From Desulfomicrobium sp. ZS1 (GTDB lineage: Bacteria > Desulfobacterota > Desulfovibrionia > Desulfovibrionales > Desulfomicrobiaceae), in assembly GCF_024204645.1 (NCBI RefSeq), contig NZ_CP100351.1, positions 3,312,001 through 3,376,000 of the forward strand: DNA of 64,000 nt, given 5' to 3'. Positions 23,720 to 60,000 of this stretch are shown piece after piece. The first letter of the stretch is position 1. Each line of letters begins with the position of its first letter. The position numbers were made by a program, and so were the translations under genes. The notes below the pieces were generated by a model. The model saw nothing but the letters and a program-made list of their open reading frames with translations. It was not told where the DNA came from and ran no database searches.

Positions 23720-24241
23720 TTATTTCTTGGGAAGCCCTGCCAGCAGGAGAAACATGGTCCGGCCTTCGACTCGGGAGGTCTGCTCGACCTTGGCGACATC
23801 AGAGACCATCTCCACGATCCGGTCCAGAATGACCTGCCCTCGATCCTTGTGCGCCATTTCGCGGCCACGGAAAAACACGGTCACCTTGCAGCGGTCTCCG
23901 TCCTCGATAAACCTTCTGATGTGCTTGATCTTAGTCATCAAGTCATGATCGTCGGTGTGTGGGCGGAATTTGATTTCCTTGACCTGAATCTGGGTCTGAC
24001 GCTTCTTGGCTTCCTGTGACTTTTTCTTTTCCTCGTAGAGGTACTTGCCGTAGTCCATAATTTTACAGACCGGCGGCTTGGCGTTGGGCGCCACTTCAAC
24101 CAGATCAAGTCCCTTTGCTTCGGCCTGTTCCAAGGCCTCGGGCACGGTCATGATACCTAGCTGATTCCCATCATCTCCAACAACCCGGATTTCCTTGGCC
24201 CTGATTTGCTTGTTCCGGCGGGCCTTAGCAGCTGAAAGAAT
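23720..24241 (-). CDS. infC: Translation initiation factor IF-3 (ATT start)
   Basis: A 173-residue protein if it starts at ATT (24241-24239). Reading upstream of the first ATG (24151) the frame continues through [20 protein letters not shown], the conserved IF-3 N-terminus, back to ATT, and then meets a TGA. GGAGGA lies seven bases before ATT. No ATG, GTG or TTG is available for the N-domain. E. coli infC also starts at AUU, through which IF-3 represses its own translation. The first 17 bases lie inside the end of thrS. Other motifs: [21 protein letters not shown] and [14 protein letters not shown]. Confidence 0.95.
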
Positions 24242-26159
24242 ATCTCATTCCTCCATGTTTAAATGGTTTTTCGCATTCCTGCCGCAAGTGGTCGGCAAAC
24301 GCATCGACGGACATGACGCCCAGATTGTTGCCACCCAGCATGCGCACGTTGACGCAGGCCTGCTCGACTTCCTGATCCCCAATGACCAGCGCATACGGAA
24401 CTTTTTCCATCTGCGCCTCACGCACCTTGTATCCCAGCTTCTCGTTGCGCAGATCGAGTTCCACGCGCACTCCCGCCCGCTGCAACGCGTCCTGGCAATT
24501 GCGGGCGAATTCGTCGTGGTTGTCGGTCACTGTCAATATGCGGGCCTGGACAGGCGCAAGCCATGCCGGAAAAGCTCCGGCGAAATGTTCGGTCAGAATG
24601 CCGATGAAACGCTCCACCGAACCCATGATGGCGCGATGCACCATGACAGGGCGGTGCCGCTCGCCATCCTCGCCCACGTATAACAAATCAAAACGATCCG
24701 GCAAGGTGAAATCGACTTGGATGGTCGAACACTGCCACTGCCTGCCCAGGCAGTCGCGCAGCTTGACGTCGATCTTGGGACCGTAGAAGGCGCCATCGCC
24801 CTCGTTGATTGTATACGGAAGCTCCATCTGGCCCATGGCGTCCATAAGAGCGCTCGTGGCGCGCTCCCAGTCCACGTCGGAACCGATGGATTTCTCGGGC
24901 CGGGTGCTGATCTCCATGGAATATTCGAAGCCGAAGACGCCCATGAGATCCTGAATCCAGGTCATAACGTCTTTGATCTCGTCCAGCAGCTGGTCAGGAC
25001 GGCAGATGATGTGCGCGTCGTCCTGGGTGAACTGGCGTACGCGCATGAGCCCGTGCAGCACGCCGGACAGCTCGTGTCGATGTACGACGCCGAACTCGAA
25101 CAGGCGGACCGGCAGATCGCGGTAACTGCGCTGTCTGGTATTGTAGATCAGCATGTGCGCCACGCAGTTCATGGGCTTGACCCCGTAAGGCACCTCGTCG
25201 ATCTCCGTGAAATACATGTTTTCACGGTAGTTGGCGTAATGGCCGGAGGTTTCCCACAGGTCGCGCTTCAAAATTTGGGGGGTACGCACAATGCCGTAGC
25301 CGCGGCGGATCATTTCCTTGTTCACGAAATCTTCAAGGATGGTCCGCAACAGGCCGCCCTTGGGGTGCCAGTAGGCCATGCCCGCGCCGCCGCGTTCATG
25401 GAAACTGAACAGATCAAGCTGGGGGCCGAGTTTACGGTGATCGCGCTTCTTGGCTTCCTCGATCATGGCCAAATGGGCCTTTAATTCCTTGGGAGTGGCG
25501 AAGGCTGTGCCGTAGATACGCTGCAGCATGGGACGCTTTGAATCCCCGCGCCAGTAGGCCCCGGCCACGGAGGTCAGCTTCACGGCCTGCAGAAACCCGG
25601 TCGAGGGCAGGTGCGGGCCGCGGCAGAGGTCCACGAAATTGCCGTGTCGATAGAGCGAGACCCGCTCGGCGCCAAGGTCATCAATAATTTCAAGCTTGTA
25701 TGTTTCGCCCATGGAGGCAAAAAGCGCCCTCGCCTCGGCAGCGCTCATTTCCTCGCGGGAAAAGGGCTGATTCGCGGCCACGGACGCCGTCATGCGCTCC
25801 TCGATCTTTTCCAGATCTTCGGGGGTGAACGGACGCTCGAAATCGAAATCGTAATAAAAGCCGTTCTCGACATCAGGGCCGATGGTCACCTTGGCGGAGG
25901 GAAACAGCTCATTGACCGCTTCGGCCATGACATGGGCGGCGCTGTGGCGCAGCACGCTCAGCCCCTCGGCCGATTCCAGAAACACGGGTTCCATGACGGC
26001 GGCTCCGGCGGGCACCGGGCGAGCCAAATCAAGCAGCGCCCCGTCGCAAACGCAGGCCACTGCTGACTTCATCTTCTTGCCGGAGAGGACCGTGCGCAAC
26101 ACATCCGCGCATGTCTGACCAGCCTGAACCTCGACGTCTTGCCCTTGTATCTGAACCAT
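24225..26159 (-). CDS. thrS: Threonyl-tRNA synthetase
   Basis: A 644-residue class II synthetase, usual length. I chose the ATG at 26159 (AGGCAGGG upstream); the frame is open into the tRNA gene, which cannot be coding. N-terminal TGS domain, editing domain with [11 protein letters not shown] and the zinc-related CRGPHLP, catalytic core with [14 protein letters not shown] and [12 protein letters not shown], and motif 3 region [20 protein letters not shown]. The anticodon-binding domain ends the protein. It overlaps infC by 17 bases. Confidence 0.97.
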
Positions 26160-26181
26160 AATGCCCTGCCTCACAAACACG

Positions 26182-26204
26182 ATAGGGAGGCTGTGCCTCC
26201 CTAT
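26182..26204 (-). promoter_or_regulatory. Strong hairpin between tRNA-Val and thrS
   Basis: ATAGGGAGGC, loop of 3, GCCTCCCTAT: a perfect 10-bp stem about 22 bases before the thrS start. No T tract follows on the minus strand. It may be the tRNA 3'-processing barrier, a thrS leader operator or a weak terminator. Confidence 0.5.
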
Positions 26205-26215
26205 GAGTTCTTTTT

Positions 26216-26290
26216 TGGTAGGCGCGAGGAGGGTCGAACTCCTGACCCCTTGCACGTCAAGCAAGTGCTCTCCCACTGAGCTACGCACCT
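26216..26290 (-). tRNA. tRNA-Val (anticodon GAC)
   Basis: A 75-base cloverleaf with encoded CCA. Acceptor AGGTGCG pairs with CGCGCCT (one G-T), D stem GCTC/GAGC, anticodon stem CTTGC/GCAAG with loop TTGACGT giving GAC, T stem AGGAG/CTCCT with loop TTCGACC. GAC reads GUC and GUU valine codons. It lies directly upstream of thrS and has its own promoter. Confidence 0.96.
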
Positions 26291-57740: not shown

Positions 57741-59363
57741 TCACAGCAGCGATTTGATCCGATCCACCAGCGGAGCCAGGGTCGGGCGTTCGATGGCGGA
57801 AATGAAGACCGCGTCGGGGTAGACGTAACCAAGGGTCTGACGTGTCTCTTCGCTGATACGGTCGATTTTGTTCAGGGCCAGAATGCGGGGAATGCCGTCA
57901 ATGGACAGGTCGCGCAGGATAGACTCCACCGCCTGGACCTGGGCTTCCATCTCCGGATGGGAGGCGTCGGCCACATGCACCAGCACGTCCGCGCTCTCAA
58001 GCTCCTCCAGGGTGGCCATGAAAGCCTCGCGCAGATCGGCGGGCAGATGACGGATAAAGCCCACCGTGTCGGTCAGGATGATTTCCCGGTCCTCGGGAAA
58101 GCGCAAGCGGCGGCTGGTGGGATCAAGGGTGGCGAAAAGCTTGTTCTCGGCCAGGACCACGCTCTTGGTCAGGGTGTTCAAAAGCGTGGACTTGCCCGCG
58201 TTGGTGTACCCGACCAGGGAGACAATGGGCAGCCCGGCCTTGTCGCGGCGGCTGCGCGTGGATTTGCGGTGCTTGCGCACGCTGCCGAGCTCAGTCTTGA
58301 TCTGGGCGATACGTTCGCGGATCTTGCGCCGATCCATCTCCAGACGCGACTCGCCCGGACCTCGCCCGCCGATGCCGCCGGCCAGACGGCTTAAAGCCCT
58401 GTTCTGCCCCACCAGGCGCGGCATCATGTATTTGAGTTGGGCCATCTCGACCTGCATCTTGCCCTCGCGGGTTTGGGCGTGCTGGGCAAAAATATCGAGA
58501 ATGAGCTGCGTGCGGTCCAAGACCTTGCGCTCGGTGATCTCGCTCAGATTGCGCTGCTGCGTGGGGGTCAGTTCCTGATCGAAAACCAGGGTCGCGGCAT
58601 TCTTCTGCAGGGCCAGCACTTCCAGTTCGGCAAGCTTGCCCCGGCCCAGGATGAGCTTGGGATTGACCCTCGTCACCCGCTGCACGACCTGCCCCACAAC
58701 GTCCAATCCAGCGGTGGCAGCCAGCTCCGCCAGCTCCGCCAAAGATCGCTCCTGCGCGCTTTTGGACTCCGAAGCCACGCTGACCAGAATCGCCGCGCCC
58801 TCGCGGGCCGTGGCAGCCACGCTCTGGCCCGTCCGCGCAAGCTCGTCTTCCAGAGCCCTGGCGTTGGCCCCGAAATCGAAATCCACATCGTCCCAGATCA
58901 TGGCCGGATGCACCTGATAGGGCAATTCGTCGGTGTTGGGAGGCAGAATATGGGCGATCTGGCAGGTTTTGGGCGCCCCGTCGGAAGATACTGTCAGCAC
59001 GCAGACCGCGTCCAGACGCAGAAAAACCATGTCCATGAGGTCTTCCTGGGTCAGCAGGGACGAATCAAGATGGGTGTGCAGCAGGCGCAGGCCGGAAAGG
59101 CGGGAATCGGCCTGTCGATGACGTGAAAGCTCGGGGATCAGGATGCCGTCCTGCTCGCCGACAATGACCATGACCGGCACGCCCTTGCGGTTGATGAGCA
59201 CGCCGAGCTGTCGGCTGACGCCGCGGCTCAGGATGGCCAGCTCCCGGGCCTGGTCGGGAGTACATCCGCCCTGATCGGGAAAGCGTCTGTTGTAGAGACG
59301 GGAAATGGCCGTGATCTGACTGGGCTTGAGGCCTGTCAGATTGCCGAGAGGTTTGGATGCTAT
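57741..59363 (-). CDS. hflX: GTPase HflX (apparent ATA start)
   Basis: A 540-residue ribosome-associated GTPase if it starts at ATA (59363-59361). The first ATG/GTG/TTG in frame is the GTG at 59201, but the frame upstream encodes the conserved HflX N-terminus (NLTGLKPSQITAISRLYNRR, SRGVSRQLGVLINRKG). GGAGAG lies seven bases before ATA, and an in-frame TGA closes the frame further up. The only other option is a CTG 21 bases later. Core motifs: GGRGPGESRLEMDRR, GYTNAGKSTLLN (G1), DTVGFIRHLP (G3) and ALNKIDR (G4). It follows the IMP cyclohydrolase gene by 43 bases. Confidence 0.9.
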   Translation of the reverse strand: MASKPLGNLTGLKPSQITAISRLYNRRFPDQGGCTPDQARELAILSRGVSRQLGVLINRKGVPVMVIVGEQDGILIPELSRHRQADSRLSGLRLLHTHLDSSLLTQEDLMDMVFLRLDAVCVLTVSSDGAPKTCQIAHILPPNTDELPYQVHPAMIWDDVDFDFGANARALEDELARTGQSVAATAREGAAILVSVASESKSAQERSLAELAELAATAGLDVVGQVVQRVTRVNPKLILGRGKLAELEVLALQKNAATLVFDQELTPTQQRNLSEITERKVLDRTQLILDIFAQHAQTREGKMQVEMAQLKYMMPRLVGQNRALSRLAGGIGGRGPGESRLEMDRRKIRERIAQIKTELGSVRKHRKSTRSRRDKAGLPIVSLVGYTNAGKSTLLNTLTKSVVLAENKLFATLDPTSRRLRFPEDREIILTDTVGFIRHLPADLREAFMATLEELESADVLVHVADASHPEMEAQVQAVESILRDLSIDGIPRILALNKIDRISEETRQTLGYVYPDAVFISAIERPTLAPLVDRIKSLL

Positions 59364-59406
59364 GGTGTTCTCTCCGTGGCCGGTGTGCGCCGGCCGGGCC
59401 GCTCCG

Positions 59407-60000
59407 TCAGGAGCGGCTCAGGTACTCGGTGATCATGCGGTCGTAGTCCGAGGTCAGGGCAAAAGTAGCCACGGCCATGCGCTTGCGGAAGCCCAGGGAA
59501 AGGGCACCGCCGTTGTCCTTCATCTCCTGCATGCATTCGGCATAGTAGGACGGACCCGGAATGACGGCCACGGAATGGAAATTCTTGGCCGCGGCGCGCA
59601 GCATGGTCGGCCCGCCGATATCGATCTGCTCAACGGCCTGCTTGTCTTCCAGGGTCTGACGCACAGCTTCGGCAAAATTGTAGAGATTGACGCAGATAAG
59701 GTCAAAAGGCGTCAGACGCAGATCTTTCAAGGTCTGCATGTGGGTGGAGTCGTCTTTGTCCGCCAGAATTCCGGCATGCACGTGCGGGTGCAGGGTCTTG
59801 ACCCGACCGCCCAGGATCTCCGGAAAACCGGTCACATCGCTGACGGAACGCACTTTGAGACCCGACTGGACGAGTTTCTTGCGCGTGCCCCCGGTGGAAA
59901 CCAGCTCCACTCCCTGCGCTTGCAGAAAACGGGCAAAGTCATCAAGGCCTGATTTATCTGTGACGCTCAGGATGGCCCGGCGAATCGGCAACATGTTCAT
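59407..60000 (-). CDS. IMP cyclohydrolase, stand-alone MGS-type domain (PurH N-terminal half)
   Basis: A 197-residue protein matching only the N-terminal domain of bifunctional PurH. AILSVTDKSGLDDFARFL, LVSTGGTRKKLVQSG, GGRVKTLHPHVHAGIL, DLICVNLYNF and IDIGGPTMLRAAAKN are its signatures. It closes FAICAR to IMP. Start ATG at 60000 with GAGAGGGGG upstream. It works with the transformylase encoded 5 kb away on the other strand. Confidence 0.93.
   Translation of the reverse strand: MNMLPIRRAILSVTDKSGLDDFARFLQAQGVELVSTGGTRKKLVQSGLKVRSVSDVTGFPEILGGRVKTLHPHVHAGILADKDDSTHMQTLKDLRLTPFDLICVNLYNFAEAVRQTLEDKQAVEQIDIGGPTMLRAAAKNFHSVAVIPGPSYYAECMQEMKDNGGALSLGFRKRMAVATFALTSDYDRMITEYLSRS

Follow-up and report, generated by a model that had tools for sequence, protein, structure and literature searches.

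The window, i.e., the whole stretch of 64,000 nucleotides from Desulfomicrobium sp. ZS1 that we analyzed, carries on its minus strand a gene that encodes a 540-residue HflX GTPase when read from an ATA codon (hflX, 57741..59363, with the stop codon ending at 57741). The frame is open from stop to stop over 558 codons (59417-57741), and a TGA in the same frame (59418..59420) lies on the 5′ side of the ATA. No ATG, GTG or TTG occurs in this open frame before the GTG at 59199..59201. We use AUH for ATA, ATC or ATT (AUA, AUC, AUU) and call ATG, GTG and TTG canonical. An earlier, sequence-only reading of this DNA had claimed that the frame has no ordinary start codon between the TGA and the GTG, and that the ATA (59361..59363), the proposed start codon, has a GGAGAG at the right distance. 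Both observations are borne out: the frame reads as described, and the GGAGAG, a putative Shine-Dalgarno (SD) sequence (59370..59375), is located 6 nt upstream of the ATA. The CTG that was named as the other candidate is also present, as the ninth codon, but its column is variable in relatives (CTC, CTT, ATC, ACG, ACC).

The product read from the ATA scores 461.6 bits against the NCBIfam model TIGR03156 (HflX), whose cut-off is 216.75, and contains the Pfam domains GTP-bdg_N (PF13167), GTP-bdg_M (PF16360) and MMR_HSR1 (PF01926). With a score over the cut-off and with N-terminal, middle and G domains, it belongs to the HflX family, and these matches leave no doubt that its GTPase part is homologous. 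The conserved N-terminal domain in residues 1-190 matched no Pfam model above its cut-off; this domain is common to distant relatives, including Fusobacterium. Two GC-rich hairpins are predicted within 59378-59417, in the gap that separates the preceding gene from the hflX SD. Around the start itself (59346-59375), the SD is predicted to base-pair with sequence in the first 12 codons; such pairing is predicted in 10 of 11 congeneric loci, with the AUH codon lying in a loop in most of them.

Alignment of the start region in related genomes, a check proposed by the sequence-only reading, placed an AUH codon at the homologous position in all 130 of the loci examined in the order Desulfovibrionales and a canonical codon in none, with variation confined to the third base. 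The sample comprised one locus from each of 130 of the 282 genomes of the order that have an hflX match, and covered all 55 genera. In 15 of the 297 genomes of the order, there was no hflX match at an E-value of 1e-60, and several of these genomes are small and nearly complete (G102, G111, G158, G221). The first 100 loci represented 39 of the 55 genus codes and had ATA in 52 cases, ATC in 39, ATT in 9 and ATG, GTG or TTG in none. Since these loci leaned toward better matches, we fetched 30 more, drawn from the genomes with the lowest scores and from the 16 genera still missing. Read by eye, they exhibited ATA 14 times, ATC 8 times and ATT 8 times, and again no canonical codon. The register of one locus (L047) was set by hand to an ATA, one codon after an ATC. 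Figures for the tree, SD pairing and codon usage are based on the first 100 loci.

The codon at this position is not used in the manner of an ordinary isoleucine codon. ATA makes up 12.9% of the 603 internal isoleucine codons in the same hflX genes, and is roughly four times as common at the start position. When one internal isoleucine codon per locus was drawn at random, 300 draws yielded a mean of 11.7 ATA codons and a maximum of 21, versus an observed 51 (52 after the register correction) among 100 loci. A tree of the 100 loci implies at least 21 interchanges among ATA, ATC and ATT at the start position and none to ATG; it was built without the start codon from about 98 residues with a quick search, which makes the number of changes approximate. 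A change from ATA to ATG is a single transition. On this comparison, AUG is avoided at the hflX start position. The sequence-only reading had described AUA starts as very rare, which understates their place at hflX, where AUH is the rule in every genome of the order that we read and is common beyond it.

Pairing of the mRNA to the 3′ end of 16S rRNA (computed using the E. coli sequence) peaks around the AUH codon across the 100 loci, with a mean of about −8.1 kcal/mol, and falls off steeply within a few codons in both directions. An SD core is present in 94 of these loci, mostly 6-9 nt from the AUH. hflX thus shares with the infC class of genes a near-cognate start codon conserved across species, the lack of an ATG, GTG or TTG at the N terminus of the conserved product and a strong SD before a weak codon, the last of these at most loci but not at every one. 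Codons 2-54 (59202..59360) of this hflX, which precede the first canonical codon, were compared with those of 14 congeneric loci (742 codon comparisons); the first, second and third codon positions differ 68, 37 and 256 times, respectively. This is the pattern of coding sequence, and it begins directly after the AUH. By contrast, codons −17 to −1 show 116, 101 and 124 differences at the three positions in the 14 congeneric loci, numbers that are inflated by insertions and deletions, and have no coding signature. The proposal of AUA initiation for hflX is therefore supported by the invariant AUH class among the 130 loci, the SD peak, the constraint that sets in directly after the codon and the restriction of its third base to A, C and T. 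As judged by comparison, AUH initiation of hflX is strongly supported.

These data bear on three other explanations of the missing canonical start. No canonical codon comes before the GTG at 59201 in the frame, and this GTG could be the true start if the conserved sequence 5′ of it were untranslated. However, the coding signature in codons 2-54 is strong, the SD peak sits at the AUH, and the first canonical codon is scattered among the 100 loci, lying anywhere from 5 to 88 codons after the AUH, all of which makes initiation at the GTG very improbable. Only marginally more credible is entry of ribosomes from the 5′ side, either through a canonical start codon or by a frameshift from the preceding gene, such that the AUH is an ordinary isoleucine codon. 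A canonical codon does occur in frame upstream of the AUH at 19 of the 100 loci, as well as at 6 of the 30 added loci, and a longer form of HflX may be made at such loci. Yet the remaining 81 of the 100 loci have no canonical codon between the in-frame stop and the AUH, the codons before the AUH lack a coding signature, ATA is used far more often than at internal isoleucines, and an SD would be needless before an internal codon. Nothing speaks for an error of sequencing or assembly, or for a mutation that arose by chance in a single strain. The sequence-only reading had named an error hiding an ATG as something that would overturn its proposal; this is excluded by the presence of the same codon class in all 130 loci, each taken from a different genome, and in many lineages beyond the order, and we regard the explanation as refuted. 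A genetic code in which AUA means methionine was also dropped, because ATC and ATT serve in the same position and neighboring genes start with ATG.

Outside the order, 99 of 138 loci have an AUH codon at the hflX start, 32 have a canonical codon (23 ATG, 5 GTG and 4 TTG) and 7 have no clear assignment. These loci comprise 60 from other orders of the same phylum and the best 80 of 580 relatives (named genomes), minus two duplicates; the start of one locus (L271) was set by hand as ATG. AUH starts occur in Geomonas silvestris (ATC), Geobacter sp. OR-1 (ATA) and Candidatus Magnetomicrobium cryptolimnococcus (ATA). Among the best 80 of 580 relatives, 24 loci belong to Nitrospirota according to their titles, and 21 of these have AUH, one has GTG and two have no clear call. 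The same set of relatives includes ATG starts in Thermodesulfatator and in three loci titled Desulfobacteraceae. In plasmid records, of which 3 of 91 were read, two Fusobacterium loci have ATG behind a GGAGG-type SD (this is the annotated start in one of them, L193), and one Acetoanaerobium locus has ATG candidates. Given the 32 canonical loci among the 138, the AUH start of hflX is not universal. Over 238 loci, at least 57 changes took place within the AUH class, and the AUH and canonical classes were exchanged at least 9 times. Four of the seven loci without a clear class have ACG at the start position at about the right distance from an SD (less clearly so in L314), which could represent a further non-canonical start.

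Canonical hflX genes tend to have a weak SD. Their median pairing energy is −3.05 kcal/mol (32 loci), compared with −9.3 kcal/mol for the AUH genes read outside the order (99 loci; Mann-Whitney P ~6e-12, uncorrected for kinship). Three canonical loci (L178, L179 and L251) are exceptions, with strong SDs of −9.3 to −9.6 kcal/mol. The weak SD is not explained by genomes that are poor in SDs, because infC retains a strong SD in the 14 canonical-hflX genomes that could be compared (median −10.95 kcal/mol for infC versus −2.8 kcal/mol for hflX). Given that canonical hflX genes mostly have a weak SD and AUH genes a strong one, the total initiation signal of hflX appears to be kept weak by either of two means: a strong SD with AUH, or a weak SD with AUG. 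This compensation fits plain low output and regulation equally well.

The window contains a second gene of this kind, infC, which encodes initiation factor IF3. It matches TIGR00168 and is read from an ATT (24241-24239) on the minus strand (23720..24241), with an SD sequence GGAGG at 24254-24250; its start overlaps the end of an upstream ORF (24225-26288). The infC start position is AUH in 30 of 30 loci of the order that were read, and in five of these an in-frame ATG follows five codons after the AUH. We screened those ORFs of the window that matched at least four of five congeners. Among 49 ORFs, only infC and hflX are clearly without a shared canonical start. Three other ORFs that were considered did not hold: ORF 16659 has ATG in five of six genomes, with the remaining one having an ATG that is offset, ORF 21940 has a shared GTG, and ORF 49366 has a shared ATG. 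Two more, ORFs 33407 and 51113, lie across other open frames and are probable shadow ORFs, the latter less certainly.

AUH starts are not a general property of ribosome-associated genes in these genomes, because lepA has ATG at or near its start in 20 of 20 loci and hpf has ATG in 20 of 20 loci. Nor do hflX and infC always have AUH starts together. Of 15 genomes with a canonical hflX, 14 are comparable, and 11 of these 14 have an AUH infC. Conversely, infC is canonical in 3 of 23 genomes for which both starts were assigned (G394, G324 and G447), and hflX is canonical in all three. Since two of the three belong to one genus and 11 canonical-hflX genomes keep an AUH infC, we do not claim a linkage between the two starts. 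For this comparison infC starts were assigned by eye, and we excluded one genome without an infC match (G440) and one whose infC start was not clear (G396). In another genome (G333), infC has an apparent CTG start behind a strong SD (L325).

We propose that translation of hflX begins at the AUA at 59363, using the SD just 5′ of it, and that this codon is one case of an AUH start that is deeply conserved in the order and in most of the relatives read outside it. An AUH codon is mismatched to the initiator anticodon at the third base alone, and this type of pairing is disfavored by IF3. HflX would therefore be expected to be made at a low rate and to be repressed by IF3, as IF3 itself is from infC, which starts with ATT here; both the rate and the repression are inferred. 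In PMC10158994, full-length product from an AUU read by a CAU anticodon is reported to make up a smaller share in vitro when IF3 is raised. The suggestion that the HflX level could depend on IF3 is consistent with this published behavior at AUU and with the ATT of infC in the window. Our analysis also suggests that hflX and infC share one kind of translational control. We consider it quite likely that the whole proposal is correct, i.e., that hflX is translated from the AUA at 59363 via its SD, that the AUH start is deeply conserved, and that HflX synthesis is low and repressed by IF3.

The most serious competitor accepts the AUH start and contests its role: AUH would only keep HflX scarce, with selection acting on total initiation strength and with no IF3 signal. 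The mostly weak SD of canonical hflX genes in genomes whose infC keeps a strong SD speaks for this explanation, as does the existence of ATG-using lineages, which would be without an IF3 response. However, AUG with a weak SD would also give low output, and nevertheless AUH has been kept at every order locus read and through all the interconversions in the 100-locus tree. Selection for scarcity also does not account for infC being the window's other gene of this kind, and a few canonical hflX genes do have a strong SD. Taking both sides together, we give this explanation slightly less than an even chance.

If hflX is indeed repressed by IF3 through its AUH start, infC and hflX might form a small regulon that reads the state of the ribosomes via the start codon, and that is old in Desulfobacterota and Nitrospirota. 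A shortage of IF3, or idle 70S ribosomes initiating without IF3, would open the AUH starts. The anti-association factor IF3 and the 70S-splitting factor HflX would then both be made and together restore free subunits, thereby closing the AUH starts again. In some lineages, this wiring would have been replaced by AUG with a weak SD. That cells use AUH starts for such feedback is a hypothesis, and we put the regulon forward tentatively, as the less probable outcome. According to PMC4770234, 70S ribosomes are split by HflX of E. coli, and the site on the 30S subunit to which HflX crosslinks closely resembles the IF3 site. HflX is presented as an alternative recycling factor under stress and IF3 as preventing reassociation in PMC9067457.

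In practical terms, a gene caller that accepts only ATG, GTG and TTG should put the N terminus of HflX in the wrong place in these genomes. More broadly, a second translation-factor gene has an AUH start in every genome of the order that was read and in most beyond it, which would place the identity of a start codon under long-term selection as a control element. The protein under such control here would be one that takes ribosomes apart. hflX also makes it possible to test directly whether control by IF3 level or by the state of the ribosomes extends beyond infC. Among the matches listed from open PubMed Central papers (subscription papers and preprints being outside this scope), we recognized no description of an AUH start of hflX.

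To our knowledge, few bacterial genes have an AUH start. Given the conservation of AUH at hflX, this gene takes its place beside infC, pcnB, sigR and ccpN, whose non-canonical starts are likewise conserved, and the case is set apart by its breadth and by the gene involved. The textbook example is infC, which starts with AUU, AUC or AUA and in E. coli is autoregulated by IF3. Like hflX, infC combines an AUH start with a strong SD in a gene for a translation factor. In contrast to infC, the gene here encodes a ribosome-splitting GTPase, and its repression by IF3 is only proposed. A published proposal of an AUU start for a ribosomal GTPase gene, in which two cases are named, resembles hflX; by contrast to that proposal, lepA has an ATG at or near its start in the genomes studied here.

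Expression of E. coli pcnB is limited by an AUU start, according to work cited in PMC1780047. The pcnB start is similar to that of hflX in type, but the case is from E. coli, whereas AUH at hflX spans an order and beyond. In Staphylococcus, ccpN (AUA) and cvfC1 (AUU) are described as having a conserved start with an extended SD, and AUA and AUU starts in S. aureus reporters gave about 10-30% of the output of AUG (PMC13009471). The word hflX has no occurrences in that paper. These genes also have a conserved AUA or AUU start in common with hflX, but are different genes and belong to Bacillota. As described in PMC5472188, the GTC start of Streptomyces sigR, present in 32 of 34 species, had been missed by annotation, and its repression by IF3 was shown experimentally; infC is given there as a gene that is also controlled by IF3. 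sigR resembles hflX in its conserved non-canonical start after a strong SD, but differs from it in that the first base of the start codon is G.
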